Shown piece by piece: positions 5,894 through 61,560 of a stretch of DNA of 64,000 nucleotides (positions are counted from its first letter, which is position 1; each line of letters begins with the position of its first letter). The stretch comes from Cardiobacterium hominis (GTDB lineage: Bacteria > Pseudomonadota > Gammaproteobacteria > Cardiobacteriales > Cardiobacteriaceae): positions 1,171,501 through 1,235,500 of the forward strand of contig NZ_LR134365.1 of NCBI RefSeq assembly GCF_900637305.1, given 5' to 3'. The notes below the pieces were generated by a model. It was not told where the DNA came from. It worked only from the letters and a program-made list of their open reading frames with translations, and searched no databases. A program made the position numbers and the translations under genes.

Positions 5894-6493
5894 GTGCTAT
5901 TGATGATTGATAATTACGATTCGTTTACTTATAACTTGGTGCAGTACTTCGCTGAACTGGGTCAGGATGTGGCTGTCTATCGTAATGATGAAATCAGTGT
6001 TGAGCAAGTGCGCGTCCTCTCGCCAGAGTACATCGTCATCGGTCCAGGCCCTTGTTCGCCAGTGGAAGCAGAAGGGGCGAACGCCATTATTCGCACATTT
6101 GCCGGGAAAATCCCAATGTTGGGCGTTTGCTTGGGGCATCAATGTATGGGGCACGTCTTCGGTGGAAAAGTATTACGTGCGCCTACTGTCATGCATGGCA
6201 AGACGGCTTCTGTTTTTCATACAGATGAAGGGATGTTTCATGGATTATCAAATCCACTTCAGGTGGTACGTTATCATTCGTTGACCGTTTCGCCCCAGCA
6301 TTTGCCACAGGGATTTGTTATGACCGCATGGACACAAGATGATTCGCAGCCAGTTGTGATGGGGATGCGGAATTCTTCTTTGATGATGGAAGGCGTGCAG
6401 TTCCATCCAGAATCGTTTTTAACAGAGTGCGGCCATCAGATGTTAGGTAATTTTATCAAAGCGTTCGCAAGTGACAGGAAGGTTATTGCATGA
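5894..6493 (+). CDS. pabA: aminodeoxychorismate/anthranilate synthase glutamine amidotransferase subunit
   Basis: Class I glutaminase that supplies ammonia to PabB (folate) or TrpE (tryptophan). The 199-residue protein has the oxyanion-hole IGPGPCSP, the nucleophile Cys in GVCLGHQ and the His-Glu pair in FHPES. The VMHGKT motif and the lone position away from trp genes favour PabA, though many bacteria use one subunit for both enzymes. The start is GTG, with AAGGA seven bases upstream. Its stop overlaps the pilB start by four bases, an unusual coupling of folate or tryptophan metabolism with pilus assembly. Confidence 0.9.
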   Translation: MLLMIDNYDSFTYNLVQYFAELGQDVAVYRNDEISVEQVRVLSPEYIVIGPGPCSPVEAEGANAIIRTFAGKIPMLGVCLGHQCMGHVFGGKVLRAPTVMHGKTASVFHTDEGMFHGLSNPLQVVRYHSLTVSPQHLPQGFVMTAWTQDDSQPVVMGMRNSSLMMEGVQFHPESFLTECGHQMLGNFIKAFASDRKVIA

Positions 6494-9419: not shown

Positions 9420-10300
9420 TGTCTTTTTTATTGAATACAGAAATTTTCCAAACGCCAATCGGTATTTTACTGGTTGGCGTTATTGGTTTAATGGTAGGCA
9501 GTTTTCTTAACGTCGTCATTTATCGCTTGCCGATTATGATGGGACGTGCTGAAAAAATTTATGCTTGGGAAGTTTTACATACGGATAAGGAAGGAGCAGG
9601 AGAAAATCCTTTTGAACCGACGGAGCACTTTAATTTAATGGTACCTGGTTCTCGTTGTCCACATTGCGGCACAGAAATTCGTTTTTGGCAGAATATTCCC
9701 GTAGTGAGTTATTTATTGCAACGTGGGCGCTGTGTAGGATGCGGTACTAAGATTACGATTCGCTACCTTCTGGTAGAAGTATTGTGCGCGGTATTAAGCA
9801 TCTTGGTAGTGCTGAAATACCCAGACCCGTGGCAATTGGCTTTTGCGTTGCTGCTGACCTGGGGGTTGTTGGCCTTGATTTTTATTGATGCCGAACAACA
9901 GATATTGCCCGATGTAATTACTTTGCCACTGATGTGGTTAGGGATCGTTGCGGCCTGCGTTCAGGGCGGGCTTTTCATCGGTTTGCGCGAGAGTGTCATC
10001 GGTGCAATGGTCGGTTATTTGTCCTTGTGGTCTGTCTATTGGCTGTTCCGTTTGGTGACAGGGAAAGAAGGCATGGGTTATGGTGATTTCAAGCTCTTGG
10101 CATTGCTTTGTGCGTGGCAAGGGATTGTGATGTTGCCGTTTATTTTGTTCTTTTCTGCATTGACCGGAATTGTTTTTGCGCTGATCAACCGTATTGGTTA
10201 TGGCGTTCCTATGGCTTTCGGCCCTTATTTGGCGATAGCAGGATGGCTGACGTTTATGTATGGTGGAGAGATCGCCGCAATAACTGGCCTTTCTTTGTAA
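9419..10300 (+). CDS. pilD: prepilin peptidase / N-methyltransferase PilD
   Basis: Integral membrane aspartyl protease that cleaves the prepilin leader and methylates the new N-terminus. The 293-residue protein has the cytoplasmic zinc site CPHCGTE...CVGCGTK (about 80-110) and both catalytic aspartates, in DAEQQILPD and GYGDFK. About eight hydrophobic spans are visible. It follows pilC directly and precedes coaE by one base, the usual gammaproteobacterial order pilB-pilC-pilD-coaE. No pilin gene is in this window. Confidence 0.97.
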   Translation: MSFLLNTEIFQTPIGILLVGVIGLMVGSFLNVVIYRLPIMMGRAEKIYAWEVLHTDKEGAGENPFEPTEHFNLMVPGSRCPHCGTEIRFWQNIPVVSYLLQRGRCVGCGTKITIRYLLVEVLCAVLSILVVLKYPDPWQLAFALLLTWGLLALIFIDAEQQILPDVITLPLMWLGIVAACVQGGLFIGLRESVIGAMVGYLSLWSVYWLFRLVTGKEGMGYGDFKLLALLCAWQGIVMLPFILFFSALTGIVFALINRIGYGVPMAFGPYLAIAGWLTFMYGGEIAAITGLSL

Positions 10301-10301
10301 G

Positions 10302-10925
10302 ATGATTATTGGTTTGACGGGCGGCATAGCCAGTGGCAAGTCTTTGTGCAGCGACTGGTTTGCCGCCCGTGCTATTGCGGTGGTTGATGCGGATGTAGTC
10401 GCACGTACGGTGGTGCATACGGGCTCGCCAGTATTGGGGGAAATTGCTACTGCTTTTGGCGAAGATGTTTTGCAGGCAGATGGCAGTTTGAATCGTGCGC
10501 TGTTGCGTGCGCGTGCTTTTGTCGATGAGGAGTCCAGAGCGCGTTTGAACGCGATTATGCAGCCGCGTATTCGTGAGCGGTTATTGCAGGAATTGGATGG
10601 TGCGGTGCAGCAGCCTTATTGTATTTTGAGTGTACCGCTACTTTTGGAAAACGGTTTGGATAGGCTGTGTGATGCGGTTTTAGCGGTGGATGTTTCTGTG
10701 CAAACGCAATTGTCGCGTGGGAGCCGACGCGATCGGCAGCAGCGGGATGCGATCGCCGCCATTATTGCGGCACAGATTCCACGCGCAGAACGTTTGCGGC
10801 GTTCTCATTTTATTGTCGATAATGAAGGTAGTTCGGCGCAAACTTATTTGCAGTTGGCGCTTTTGCATCAGCGTTTTTTAGCTTGGAATGGCATCGTGGC
10901 TCCGATGAGGGCGCATTCCATATAG
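10302..10925 (+). CDS. coaE: dephospho-CoA kinase
   Basis: Phosphorylates the 3'-hydroxyl of dephospho-CoA in the last step of CoA synthesis. The 207-residue protein starts with the P-loop GLTGGIASGKS, has the DAD substrate motif (VVDADVVAR), the LLENGLD lid region and the late ADIAA-like helical end. It is the last gene of the pilus operon. The opposite-strand luxS ends 49 bases away, with a hairpin between them. Confidence 0.95.
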   Translation: MIIGLTGGIASGKSLCSDWFAARAIAVVDADVVARTVVHTGSPVLGEIATAFGEDVLQADGSLNRALLRARAFVDEESRARLNAIMQPRIRERLLQELDGAVQQPYCILSVPLLLENGLDRLCDAVLAVDVSVQTQLSRGSRRDRQQRDAIAAIIAAQIPRAERLRRSHFIVDNEGSSAQTYLQLALLHQRFLAWNGIVAPMRAHSI

Positions 10926-10948
10926 AAACGGAGCGCCGCAGCGCCCCG
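10924..10948 (-). terminator. hairpin between coaE and luxS
   Basis: On the minus strand, CGGGGCGC pairs with GCGCTCCG (one G-T pair) around a four-base loop, followed by TTTCTAT. It is a moderate terminator for luxS and might also slow coaE transcription. Confidence 0.45.
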
Positions 10949-10973
10949 CTTCCATAAATACGAGACACGGGTA

Positions 10974-11438
10974 TCAAGCAAAAATAGTTTCCCATTCACT
11001 GCGCTTATCGAGCAGCCTTTGCGCCAGCGCTTTGGCCCCTTCCAGACTGTGGCTTGCCGCCCAGCCACATTGCACCTCATTGCAGGCGGGGACTTCCGTC
11101 GCATTCAGCACATCTTTCAGCGTGTCTTCAATCAAATTCAGCGCCGTTTGATAATCCGGCTCATTGAGCAGTGATACATAAAAACCGGTCTGGCAGCCCA
11201 TCGGCGAGATATCGACCACATGCGCATTATGATTGCGTGACAATTCCGCCATTAAATGCTCCAATGAGTGCAGGGCGGGCATTTCCATATGCTCTTTATT
11301 CGGCTGGCAAATGCGTAAATCATATTTGAAAATCACATCGCCGTTTTCTCCCTGTTTCTTGTCAGCAAGGCGTAGATAAGGGGCTTTGACTTTGGTGTGA
11401 TCAAGATTGAAACTCTCAACATTCATGCGTTTTTCCAT
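10974..11438 (-). CDS. luxS: S-ribosylhomocysteine lyase
   Basis: Cleaves S-ribosylhomocysteine to homocysteine and DPD, the precursor of autoinducer-2. The 154-residue protein has the metal ligands in HSLEH, the catalytic Cys in [10 protein letters not shown] and the third ligand in [10 protein letters not shown] chose [10 protein letters not shown] as the start because ACGGAG lies five bases upstream; a second ATG four codons later is also possible. It is a single-gene unit divergent from trhP. Confidence 0.95.
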
Positions 11439-11594: not shown

Positions 11595-12935
11595 ATGCGA
11601 CACGTCGAACTCCTTGCCCCCGCCGGCTCCATGAAAACCATGCGCTATGCCTTCGCTTACGGCGCGGATGCCGTTTACGCGGGCTCGGCGCGCTATTCCC
11701 TGCGCATGCGCGGCAACGAATTCACCGACGACAACCTGAAAGACGGCATCAGCGAGGCGCACGCGCTGGGCAAACAGTTCTACCTCACTGTCAATACCCA
11801 GCCGCACAACTACAAGCTCGATACCGCCCTGCGCGACCTCGCGCCCGCCATTGCCGCCGGCCCGGACGCGCTCATCATGTCCGACCCTGGCTTGATTATG
11901 GTCGTCAAAGAGGCCTATCCCGAGCTGCCGATTCACCTTTCCGTGCAGGCGAACACCGTCAACTGGGCGACGGTCAAATTCTGGCAACGCAACGGCATCA
12001 GTCGCGTCATCCTCTCGCGTGAGCTCTCGCTCAAAGAAATCGAAGAAATCCGCCAACGCTGCCCCGACATGGAGTTGGAAGTCTTCGTCCATGGCGCGCT
12101 GTGCATGGCCTACTCCGGCCGCTGCCTGCTCTCCGGCTATTTCAACAACCGCGACCCCAACCAAGGCACCTGCACCAACGCCTGCCGCTGGAAATACAAA
12201 ACCCACGGCAGCACCGAAGAGGAAGAAGGCGAATTCATCCCCACCCCCGACCTCATCTTCAGCCCGGACGCGCTCACCGGCATCACCGACGTGCGCGAAC
12301 GCCACCCGCTTGCCGATGGCGTCTACTACCTCGAAGAAGAAAACCGCCCCGGCGAATACATGGAAATCACCGAAGACGAACACGGTACCTACATCATGAA
12401 CAGCCGCGACCTGCGCGCCATCGAACACGTCGGCGAGCTGGTGCGCATCGGTGTGGACTGCCTGAAAATCGAGGGGCGCACCAAATCCTTCTACTACGCG
12501 GCGCGCACCGCGCAGCTCTACCGCCAGGCGATTGACGACGCCTATGCCGGGCGCGACTTTAACCCGCAGCTCAACAGCAAACTGGAAGGCCTTGCCAACC
12601 GTGGCTACACCGACGGCTTCTTCGTCCGCCGGCAAATTAAGGCACAGCAAAACTACAATACCGGCAGCTCCAACGCCGCCACCCAACAATTCGTCGGCGA
12701 AGTCATCGCCTACGACGCCGCGACCGGGCTTGCCACCATTGAAGCAAAAAACCACTTCAAAAGCGGCGACAGCATCGAAATCATCCAGCCGGGCGGCAAC
12801 CGCGAAATCATCCTCGGCGCGCTCTACGACGTGAAAACGGGCGAAACCGTGCCTGCGGCCAAAGGCAGCGGCTGGCAGGTAAAAACAGCGCTTGGCATTG
12901 CCGATGGCTACACCGTGCTGGCGAAAAATCTCTGA
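11595..12935 (+). CDS. trhP: U32-family tRNA 5-hydroxyuridine synthesis protein TrhP (YegQ)
   Basis: Prephenate-dependent factor that hydroxylates U34 of several tRNAs on the way to cmo5U. The 446-residue protein starts ELLAPAGSMKTMRYAFAYGA, as this family does, and carries the U32 signature EVFVHGALCMAYSGRC followed by the cysteines of GTCTNACRWKY that may hold an iron-sulfur cluster. The C-terminal barrel (VGEVIAYD onward) is intact. Length and motifs match YegQ rather than UbiU/UbiV or RlhA. It is a single-gene unit with its own -10 element and terminator. Confidence 0.9.
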   Translation: MRHVELLAPAGSMKTMRYAFAYGADAVYAGSARYSLRMRGNEFTDDNLKDGISEAHALGKQFYLTVNTQPHNYKLDTALRDLAPAIAAGPDALIMSDPGLIMVVKEAYPELPIHLSVQANTVNWATVKFWQRNGISRVILSRELSLKEIEEIRQRCPDMELEVFVHGALCMAYSGRCLLSGYFNNRDPNQGTCTNACRWKYKTHGSTEEEEGEFIPTPDLIFSPDALTGITDVRERHPLADGVYYLEEENRPGEYMEITEDEHGTYIMNSRDLRAIEHVGELVRIGVDCLKIEGRTKSFYYAARTAQLYRQAIDDAYAGRDFNPQLNSKLEGLANRGYTDGFFVRRQIKAQQNYNTGSSNAATQQFVGEVIAYDAATGLATIEAKNHFKSGDSIEIIQPGGNREIILGALYDVKTGETVPAAKGSGWQVKTALGIADGYTVLAKNL

Positions 12936-12951
12936 CCCATCCATCGTCCGC

Positions 12952-12984
12952 AAAAAAAGCCGCTGCATCATCAGCGGCTTTTCC
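12952..12984. terminator. bidirectional terminator between trhP and the DUF4870-like gene
   Basis: AGCCGCTG and CAGCGGCT pair around a six-base loop, with seven A on the left and four T on the right, so it can serve both converging units. Confidence 0.8.
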
Positions 12985-12991
12985 GTTACGG

Positions 12992-13438
12992 CTACAAGCC
13001 CCGTGGCAGCCCCGGCGTGAACGGATTTTTGATGCCCACCCCGCGCGACAATAATTTATAACCGCGCCAAAAGCGGGCAAGCCACAGCGCATAAAGCGCC
13101 ATGCCATAGAAAACGACAAACAGCGTACTCCAGCGCGGCGGCAAAAATACACGGTTGAGCGGGCAGATGACCGGGTCGGCAAACGCGCGCAAGGCGAAAA
13201 AGGCGGCGATGCCGAGCGCGACCGCCATCAGCATCCACAGCGTGCTGAACGCCTGAAAACGAAAATGGCTGGCGAGTGTCGCGTCTTGCGTGCGGCGCCA
13301 TGCGGCAAGCGCCAACACGCTGCCCGCCGGAATGGTCAGCCAGCCGATGAGCGCGCCGACCAAAAACAGGCTGTAAATGTCATGCGCGCGTTTGAGCAGC
13401 GGCTGGCGGAAATAATCCGCCGTTTCATAAGTATTCAT
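12992..13438 (-). CDS. small integral membrane protein (DUF4870-like)
   Basis: A 148-residue protein with three or four hydrophobic spans (about 25-48, 68-90 and 103-122), an N-terminal LKRAHDIYSLFLVG segment and a basic C-terminus, RFWRGYKLLSRG. The layout recalls DUF4870-type membrane proteins, but I cannot name a function. Its start overlaps the end of the MerR-type regulator gene by four bases, so the regulator is made from the same transcript. Confidence 0.7.
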   Translation of the reverse strand: MNTYETADYFRQPLLKRAHDIYSLFLVGALIGWLTIPAGSVLALAAWRRTQDATLASHFRFQAFSTLWMLMAVALGIAAFFALRAFADPVICPLNRVFLPPRWSTLFVVFYGMALYALWLARFWRGYKLLSRGVGIKNPFTPGLPRGL

Positions 13439-58977: not shown

Positions 58978-58984
58978 CGATACG

Positions 58985-59011
58985 AAAAGGCTGCTACGGC
59001 AGCCTTTTTTA
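58985..59011 (+). terminator. terminator after ileS
   Basis: AAGGCTGC and GCAGCCTT pair around TACG, followed by six T. Confidence 0.88.
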
Positions 59012-59272
59012 TCGCCGTGGGAAAGCTTCACTTTTCTCAATATTACCAAATGCACATTGAGGCGTAACCTTGAACCTTTTCCCTATACCTGCAAAGAAAA
59101 CCTGAAAAAACCGGAATTAACATTAACCTATAAAAACAGCACGCGAAAAAGACGCTATGCGGATACTTGCAAAGAACAAACATTACATTAAGATGTCCAC
59201 CAGTCATGTGCCTCTGGCTTGTGGCTAGAAAATTTCCTTTATCTCTAAATCTTAAATACAGGTAGATTCAAG
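59012..59272. other. AT-rich interval before the surface lipoprotein gene
   Basis: No gene, clear repeat or recognised operator is seen in this roughly 260-base interval. It is much more AT-rich than the surroundings and must hold the promoter of the lipoprotein gene, but I could not pick a convincing -35/-10 pair or a Fur box. Confidence 0.5.
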
Positions 59273-61375
59273 ATGAAACTAACGAACCTTTCTCTGGCAG
59301 TCATGGTAGCAGTCGGTGTTGCCGCCTGTGGTGGCAGTGGCGATGACAACAGCAACAAGCCCGCAGATCCGCCCAAACAACCCACGCCGAACCAGCCGCA
59401 GCAACCTCAACAACCGGAAGCGCAAACCAACCCGCAGCAAGCGGTTGACCCGACCGGCACCCATGTCGTGGATGACAAAGACCTCACCAAACAAAACACC
59501 GTCGGCACCCTGCAATACATCCGCCGCGATGGCTCCCAGTACGACCGCGTGCTGAACCCGAGCAAACCGGCGTCTGCTTCACCGTTGCTTGGTACCACGC
59601 TGAACGAACAGAACCCGCGCTTGACCAACATCGTCTTAGCGCGTCAAGACATCACCCGCGCCGATGGCACCCCGGTTAAAGCACAATTCACCGGTAGCGA
59701 TAACCCGATGCCGCTGAAAGCCAATGGTGAAATCATTCAGGACTCTGTAACTAATAGCAATAGCCTGCAACAAGAAAACTTTAGAAATGTTGATGTTCTA
59801 GCAGGCATGTATGACCTTCATGCCAATCAGCTGGAAACAGATAGCACGGATACGAGCAAACTGAAAGAAGCTGAAGCCAAGCACTTCAAAACGGACAATC
59901 TGGACGAACGCAACCAATTTAGCCGCAGAATGACGGACAGAACTTTCGAGTACGATGTTGTCAATGATGAAAGATTCCCGTCAACACTCTACACTCCTGC
60001 TGGTGGTGCTCCAACTGATATGCCGCTTACTGCCATTCTCTCGCCGACGACTCATACCATTATGGTTGGCGGAAACCCTACATATCCGTGGAAAGATATT
60101 AATGGCAATGAATTCACAGTATATAAAAGAACATTGCCTGCGGTTGGCAATGGTAAAGCCAGTACGGTAGTTACGCCCGCAGACGCTACGGAACGTAAAT
60201 TTGGTAAAGATCTGGTCTGGTGGAGTGCGCCGCAAACCGCTTTCGAAAATACCTTCACCCGTAATGGTGGCAAAACAACAGCAACTGATCCGGCTTTTGA
60301 AGATGGTACTATTGCCGGTGTACCTAACAAGGCCAGAAAATTTGCTGGTGATATCGAAAACAGTCACGCTGCAACCAATGGTTTGATTCGTATCGGCAGT
60401 ATTAATTATAACTCAGGCGCTGCGCCTACTCTTCCGACATTGGGACAAGAACTCAATTTCAATAAAGAAACCAATAAATGGGAAGATCACCATAATACGA
60501 CGACGCGAATTTTCGGCCGTTACCACCTTGCTACCGTTGATGGCAAGAATAACGAGTTAAAACCTGTCGCACTCAATAGCTTTAGCGGCGTTAGAAGTTT
60601 TGCTGCGGCCTATGAAGAAGGGGATAAAAATAAAATTACCCAATACAGCATCGGCGCAATTCCCAGCACGCTGAAACATGTCCAATATGGTCGCGTCACG
60701 ACCAATCTGGATTTGGATGCCGGTCAAGACGGTTATCCCGATGGCTTCATCCGCAGTCCGTTTGCCAACAAGGGTGACGATAACACCGTCGATAACTACT
60801 TCTACCGCGGTACCGATGCGACCACCATCGAGCAAATGGCGGCGCTGCCGAGCAACCAGACAGCGGTTTATAACGGCCATGCGCTGATGTACGGCATTGA
60901 CAACAGCTATCACGGCAGCGGCGGCCGCAATCTGCCGAACGCTTTTGCCGGTACGGCATCTGGCATTGGCTTGGGTAACTTCGTTGAAGCCCGTGTCGAT
61001 TTCGGCAAGAAACGCGTCTTGGGCGAAGTCTATAACGAATGGCTGCTGGATCCGAGCAAAGCCGCGACAACCCGTGACAAACTGGTTCGCTTCCAGGGCA
61101 ATATCACCGGTAACACCGTCATTGGTTCTGCCGACCGCACTTACGTCGCAGGCGATGATTGCGCTATCTTCAAGGCATCCTTCTTCGGCGAAAAAGCAGA
61201 AGAAATGGGCGGCTCATTTAACACCGTCCAGGATACCTCCAAATACGGCGATGCCTACGGGCAAAACGACTGGGGCGGCGTATTTGGCGCAAGCAAAGGC
61301 AGCGCTACCAGCAACACCTTCCAGGGTGATGACGGCAACAATAACTACGGCCAAAACAACTACAGCCAGTTATAA
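59273..61375 (+). CDS. TbpB-like surface lipoprotein (Slam-type)
   Basis: A 700-residue lipoprotein: the lipobox VAAC puts the acylated Cys at residue 19, followed by GGSGDDN and a Pro/Gln-rich linker (about 28-55). The C-terminus (about 623-675) has the TbpB/fHbp-type barrel pattern FKASFFGEKAEEMGGSF, then GGVFGASKG. Such proteins sit on the cell surface, often exported by Slam, and bind host transferrin, haemoproteins or complement factors; the ligand here is unknown. The middle (about codons 155-480) is less GC-rich than both ends, which suggests a mosaic gene. Confidence 0.8.
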   Translation: MKLTNLSLAVMVAVGVAACGGSGDDNSNKPADPPKQPTPNQPQQPQQPEAQTNPQQAVDPTGTHVVDDKDLTKQNTVGTLQYIRRDGSQYDRVLNPSKPASASPLLGTTLNEQNPRLTNIVLARQDITRADGTPVKAQFTGSDNPMPLKANGEIIQDSVTNSNSLQQENFRNVDVLAGMYDLHANQLETDSTDTSKLKEAEAKHFKTDNLDERNQFSRRMTDRTFEYDVVNDERFPSTLYTPAGGAPTDMPLTAILSPTTHTIMVGGNPTYPWKDINGNEFTVYKRTLPAVGNGKASTVVTPADATERKFGKDLVWWSAPQTAFENTFTRNGGKTTATDPAFEDGTIAGVPNKARKFAGDIENSHAATNGLIRIGSINYNSGAAPTLPTLGQELNFNKETNKWEDHHNTTTRIFGRYHLATVDGKNNELKPVALNSFSGVRSFAAAYEEGDKNKITQYSIGAIPSTLKHVQYGRVTTNLDLDAGQDGYPDGFIRSPFANKGDDNTVDNYFYRGTDATTIEQMAALPSNQTAVYNGHALMYGIDNSYHGSGGRNLPNAFAGTASGIGLGNFVEARVDFGKKRVLGEVYNEWLLDPSKAATTRDKLVRFQGNITGNTVIGSADRTYVAGDDCAIFKASFFGEKAEEMGGSFNTVQDTSKYGDAYGQNDWGGVFGASKGSATSNTFQGDDGNNNYGQNNYSQL

Positions 61376-61430
61376 GCCACTTTCCAACCGAAGTTAGTCA
61401 CAACGACGCTCCGTCTGCTCCGGCAGACAA

Positions 61431-61460
61431 AACGGCCACGCAAGTGGCCGTTTCTTTTTT
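61431..61460 (+). terminator. terminator after the lipoprotein gene
   Basis: ACGGCCAC and GTGGCCGT pair around GCAA, followed by TTTCTTTTTT. Another hairpin (GTCTGC-TCCG-GCAGAC) stands just upstream. Confidence 0.82.
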
Positions 61461-61486
61461 GCCCGTGCATCCGTATGAGGCTTTAG

Positions 61487-61530
61487 GAGGATTGCTATAC
61501 CGCGCGATGCTGCATGAGGATTGCTATACT
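61487..61530 (+). promoter_or_regulatory. tandem repeat with two extended -10 elements
   Basis: GAGGATTGCTATAC occurs at 61487-61500 and 61516-61529, a 29-base period. Each copy holds TGCTATAC(C/T), an extended -10; the second copy gives TATACT at 61525-61530, about 30 bases before the epimerase start. Two stacked promoters or a promoter duplication are likely. Confidence 0.5.
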
Positions 61531-61560
61531 GCGCACTCCTCCCTAAATTAGGAAACCGCA

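Follow-up and report, generated by a model that had tools for sequence, protein, structure and literature searches.

The window analysed here, a 64,000-nucleotide stretch of the Cardiobacterium hominis genome (G000; 2.67 Mb in one contig), contains on its forward strand a gene for a predicted lipoprotein, flanked by housekeeping genes whose names were assigned from Pfam domains: ribF, ileS, an aldose epimerase, a HAD hydrolase, tilS and pyrG. The open reading frame at 59273-61375 (+), whose coordinates proved exact, begins with ATG and encodes 700 amino acids. Its upstream neighbor was confirmed by Pfam as ileS, as had been proposed. The features of the locus are as follows, with the basis of each in brackets.

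58984-59009, forward strand: terminator hairpin after ileS, parting the gene from ileS (fold of -15.9 kcal/mol; absent from the consensus-scan list)
59167-59194, forward strand: promoter-like TTGCAA-16-TAAGAT (upstream alignment; absent from the consensus-scan list)
59273-61375, forward strand: probable surface-lipoprotein gene, mature protein ~74 kDa (open reading frame and Pfam)
59273-59329, forward strand: signal peptide and lipobox with predicted acylated Cys19 (sequence)
59420-59824, forward strand: residues 50-184, a conserved N-terminal part without a known domain (alignment; Pfam without match)
59825-60232, forward strand: hypervariable middle, residues 185-320 (identity with the 184k paralogue)
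60365-61306, forward strand: TbpB-like lobe (handle and barrel), residues 365-678 (AF2 model, pTM 0.70; Z 16.4 to TbpB)
60845-61297, forward strand: eight-stranded barrel, Pfam TbpB_B_D, residues 525-675 (Pfam and model)
61430-61453, forward strand: the gene's own terminator (terminator scan and fold)

Nothing was listed upstream of the gene by the consensus promoter scan; the TTGCAA-16-TAAGAT site aligns with the upstream regions of short copies of the gene in the same genome and in two related genomes. Hairpin sequences resembling the gene's terminator stand 3' of the other five homologous loci in the genome. Between this terminator and the aldose epimerase gene, two 29-bp direct repeats that are 83% alike occupy positions 61477-61534.

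The place after ileS had been described in the first-pass annotation as one where lspA often stands. This applies to all eight genomes from outside the genus in which ileS was matched; there, lspA lies at most 700 bp after ileS (35-45 bp between match ends in six genomes, 157 bp and split in G011, and 656 bp in G004). It does not extend to the genus of the window, where lspA is found 1.15 Mb from ileS in G000 and 105 kb from it in the genus mate Cardiobacterium valvarum NCTC13294 (G002); in G001, no lspA was found. Since ileS in C. valvarum is followed by other frames, comprising neither lspA nor a member of the gene family (its two family genes are located at 2.45 Mb and 2.46 Mb), the departure of lspA from ileS looks like a trait of the genus rather than an effect of the window gene, and displacement of lspA by the window gene was rejected on the same grounds. 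As a separate observation, only fragments containing stop codons or a frame change were matched for lspA of G011 (Rappaport israeli; L084-L086).

The C-terminal lobe and its relation to TbpB

The sequence anatomy supports the first-pass description of a clear lipobox, a C-terminal barrel motif and a middle part with no recognised domain. The lipobox, located by eye and by alignment, reads ...VGVAACGGS and contains Cys19, and this cysteine is invariant among 14 aligned homologues. The Pfam family TbpB_B_D matches residues 525-675 with an E-value of 1.2e-31 and is also found in all 13 aligned family members, while the Pfam scan of the window protein returned no other family above its cut-off. 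The NCBIfam model NF041636 (slam_lipo), which recognises six of the 13 family members, does not match the window protein. The factor H-binding type of domain, FHBP_C, scored 17.3 bits against a cut-off of 28.1, and an assignment to fHbp was rejected for this reason.

The AF2 model of the whole protein is poor (mean pLDDT 41), being weak outside the barrel and giving no usable model of residues 1-365. Modeled alone, the lobe of residues 365-678 reaches a pTM of 0.70, with eight strands and a pLDDT above 78 for most of the barrel strands. Its best matches among 999 chains are TbpB (Z 16.4), NHBA (15.8), LbpB (15.4), fHbp (14.3), HpuA (13.7), and HphA (13.6), in agreement with Foldseek. A single-protein sequence search of solved structures gave no matches, and a profile search of them returned only TbpB 5kkx (E 0.064) and one unrelated chain (0.89). 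Pfam and structure prediction thus both bear out the TbpB-like fold that had been proposed.

The window protein shares the C-terminal handle and eight-stranded barrel with the Slam-dependent surface lipoproteins TbpB, LbpB, HpuA, fHbp, and NHBA, as well as with the haemophore HphA; the lipobox is shared with the Slam-dependent lipoproteins, and a Slam gene stands beside relatives of the window gene. Unlike these lipoproteins, however, its one lobe is preceded by about 350 residues without a known domain, and its family is multi-copy, with no Slam adjacent in G000. According to PMC5449769, a variable N-terminal part precedes the barrel in most lipoproteins encoded next to Slam. Another TbpB-like lipoprotein, Lip40 of Actinobacillus pleuropneumoniae, is smaller, judging by its name, and was compared by its authors with Cardiobacterium hominis lipoproteins (PMC4660844).

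The label of TbpB-like surface lipoprotein therefore needs to be divided, because fold and lipobox agree with it, but TbpB itself was rejected: the protein has one TbpB_B_D barrel rather than two, and a Pfam scan of six neighboring genes in the window revealed neither a TonB-dependent receptor nor TbpA. The broader proposal, that the product is either a genuine TbpB or a lipoprotein that binds host iron or heme (a haemophore) and works with a TonB-dependent receptor, draws on the resemblance of the lobe to TbpB, HpuA, and HphA, the similarity to the C-terminal lobe of TbpB being at a Z of about 16. It is nevertheless unlikely, given the single barrel and the housekeeping enzymes encoded by the six scanned neighbors, and a ligand is not deducible from the fold.

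Linkage of the family to Slam genes

The search for Slam genes proposed in the first-pass annotation identified two in the window genome, with E-values of 6e-89 and 1e-83, one of them from the clade described below, and Slam genes beside family genes in relatives. All 12 genomes of the bacterial family contain Slam genes, and a Slam gene adjoins a family gene in six of these genomes and at all four Psychrobacter loci. With the initial Met of the Slam frame as the end point of each distance, the family gene is followed by a same-strand Slam gene at 183 bp in G001, 50 bp in G006, 94 bp in G007, 704 bp in G011, and 446 bp in G004, and at 98-106 bp in Psychrobacter (L095-L098), while in C. valvarum the two genes are divergent and 349 bp apart. 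Neither Slam gene of G000 has a family copy beside it.

A tree was built from 22 Slam sequences (25 before three duplicates were dropped); G009 and G010 are not represented in it, and G008 lacks one of its Slam genes and G005 its further ones. The linked Slams all fall in one clade of 13, with an SH-aLRT support of 92 against the tool's mark of 95. The G000 Slam at 1328693 groups with the two linked Slams of the same genus, to which it is 77% and 69% identical. Counted as sequences, which are not independent events, a family gene is present in the locus for 10 of the 13 Slams of this clade and for none of the eight of the other (Fisher p 0.001); without the four Psychrobacter loci, which had been fetched through the family gene, the counts become 6/9 and 0/8 (p 0.009). 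The SlamB loci L105 and L106 begin near a contig end, so that one side is little covered, and the G005 Slam (L113), on a long branch outside both clades, enters neither count.

Several further features were observed at these loci. In G005, a protein with two TbpB_B_D matches (L113:2830-4764) is encoded just before the Slam gene, at a place where other genomes have the one-barrel family. In C. valvarum, the family genes and the Slam gene are flanked by three arrays of tandem repeats, each repeat being about 100 bp long (L050:5008-6513, 9520-11064, and 11948-13043). The gene that follows Slam in Psychrobacter sp. ANT_WB68 encodes FtsX and MacB_PCD domains, which are carried by LolC/E proteins.

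The fold matches of the lobe, the linkage of the family to Slam, and the stronger divergence of the middle than of the flanks make it quite probable that the product is a surface lipoprotein with one lobe, dependent on Slam and distinct from TbpB itself. Counted against this explanation are the position of the G000 family copies away from Slam, the failure of the slam_lipo model to match, the clade support of 92, and the poor model of the whole protein. A neighboring Slam gene is usual for such lipoproteins and not obligatory. A lipoprotein facing the periplasm from the outer membrane would be an alternative as to location, and it is very improbable in view of both the Slam linkage in relatives and a fold class that is that of surface lipoproteins.

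On the preferred reading of a Slam-dependent surface lipoprotein, the protein would be exported by Sec and lipidated, after which the Lol pathway would carry it to the outer membrane. The Slam encoded at G000:C1:1328693 would then recognise the C-terminal lobe and pass the lipoprotein to the surface, where the N-terminal and middle parts would be displayed outside. Least certain are the last steps, in which the middle may meet host ligands or antibodies and diversify, and the lobe may be held constant by the export machinery. A comparable route of Sec, lipidation, Lol with Skp, and then Slam is described in PMC9090332, with Slam proposed to read a C-terminal motif, and in PMC8406197 it is proposed that such cargo is divided into an effector part at the N-terminus and an export part at the C-terminus. 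The window protein's anatomy fits this effector/export split.

Family copies and the variable middle

Family members occur in nine of the 12 genomes searched within the bacterial family; beyond it, homologues comprise the four Psychrobacter loci and weak matches in Actinobacillus and Aggregatibacter. The window genome has six homologous loci, of which five are intact and one is without its 5' half. The intact ones are the window gene (700 aa), 184k (669 aa), 78k (1029 aa), 1465k (987 aa), and 1469k (1063 aa), the last of which has a GTG start and is tandem to 1465k, forming the sole side-by-side pair among the six. The long copies have about 300 extra residues in the middle, an insert in which Pfam found no domain. 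The sixth locus, 665k, starts at a position corresponding to residue 498 of the protein from 1465k, to which it is 65% identical, and has an open frame of about 508 codons with no lipobox; no convincing N-terminal remnant was detected within 14 kb around it. This copy (L036:5919-7442), whose frame is intact and which adjoins, as judged by eye, a serine dehydratase-like gene, may be a silent cassette or a relic.

Both the 184k copy and the G001 copy stand beside a similar kind of gene (of the pyruvate phosphate dikinase type in G000 by Pfam, with a similar start in G001 by eye), so that 184k looks like the positional counterpart of the G001 copy, leaving the window gene as an apparent additional one. 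Upstream of 184k (L035, minus strand), a run of seven G between promoter-like hexamers, about 78-84 bp before the start at 6345, is a possible slippage site. On a wider scale, G000 has 25 TbpB_B_D matches above the cut-off, and the other 11 genomes of the bacterial family have 4-12 matches each; three consecutive barrel matches, one in a frame with a TAG, lie at G000:C1:2048322-2050208.

The first-pass annotation had interpreted the protein as a mosaic with a swapped ligand-binding region, and had described the middle as less GC-rich. The compositional statement is correct: GC3 amounts to 103/160 in residues 1-160, 143/340 in residues 161-500, and 134/200 in residues 501-700 (chi-square p 2e-9). 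The argument for a mosaic drawn from it is weakened because the dip is present in all five short homologues compared (p 7.5e-5, 8e-4, 2e-3, 3e-9, and 0.017). Hypervariability of the middle between copies is upheld, but there is neither a donor nor a near-identical tract to support a swap: of 369 genomes of the class searched with residues 174-312, only that of the window gave a match, namely the window itself, so the remaining 368 yielded no donor, and synonymous codons revealed no nearly identical tract in any comparison of copies. For want of such tracts, recent gene conversion among the copies was rejected.

The comparison of copies is more specific. Between the window gene and 184k, 29 of 121 positions (24%) are identical in residues 185-320 and 385 of 510 (75%) in the flanks, whereas between 184k and its G001 counterpart the corresponding values are 69/129 (53%) and 390/511 (76%). 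Because the middles differ between the two comparisons (Fisher p 2.5e-6) and the flanks do not (p 0.77), the middle of the window copy appears to have departed from its sisters beyond what the flanks predict, and, as far as sequence comparison reaches, its exchange is possible. One reading treats the middle as a surface-exposed linker or loop under weak constraint, changing fast by point substitution and small indels with no exchange. It may well be right, falling somewhat short of probable, and is favored by the variation of the middle in length and sequence within the family (the long copies having about 300 aa more), the lack of a Pfam domain in both short and long forms, and the generality of the GC3 dip; it leaves unexplained why, although the flanks have diverged equally, the middles of 184k and G001 resemble each other and that of the window copy stands apart. 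That contrast is instead accommodated by antigenic exchange, in which recombination between strains or copies would have swapped the middle as a cassette, a reading that also draws on the low GC3 of the window gene, which runs to about residue 500, further than in 184k, and on the presence of the 5'-less 665k copy with its intact frame. The missing donor and tracts, together with the shared GC3 dip, keep the cassette reading tentative.

The Dichelobacter cluster and implications for the family

Dichelobacter nodosus VPI 2340 has four homologues arranged in two convergent pairs (contigs L092 and L093), with blastp E-values of about 1e-54 to 1e-57. One of them has a complete start and lipobox. 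A shared core sequence occurs at five places, with one upstream (5') head joining two different bodies and another head also joining two; 13 genes from outside Dichelobacter were tested for this core, and none had it. The genes omp1A-D of D. nodosus reportedly undergo site-specific inversion, a report attributed to Moses et al. 1995; the layout of the cluster matches the Omp1 inversion system, and the presumed size of Omp1, ~75 kDa, is similar to that of the mature window protein. Judged by its layout, the cluster is likely to be Omp1, and if so, Omp1 is a member of the Slam-linked family. The literature searched on Cardiobacterium and Dichelobacter surface lipoproteins, with few subscription journals covered, contained no link between Omp1 and Slam. 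The window genome does not share this switch: the G000 copies are mostly dispersed, five of the six have their own start and lipobox, and the core was absent from the genes tested.

It is conceivable, if rather doubtful, that the shuffling cluster of D. nodosus and the dispersed G000 copies represent one Slam-exported antigen family, in which the C-terminal lobe would serve as an unchanging module for export, while the N-terminal and middle parts would be surface modules open to interchange. Variation of the latter would come from inversion in Dichelobacter, and in Cardiobacterium from dispersal, duplication, and possibly recombination with the 5'-less copy.

The genus Cardiobacterium includes bacteria that cause human endocarditis. 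If the interpretation is true, Cardiobacterium would have a large set of probable surface lipoproteins, judging from the 25 barrel matches, with only two export genes, and Slam substrates would also include the D. nodosus cluster that switches and is likely to be the Omp1 antigen. The association of the family with a single Slam clade offers a direct test of export specificity.
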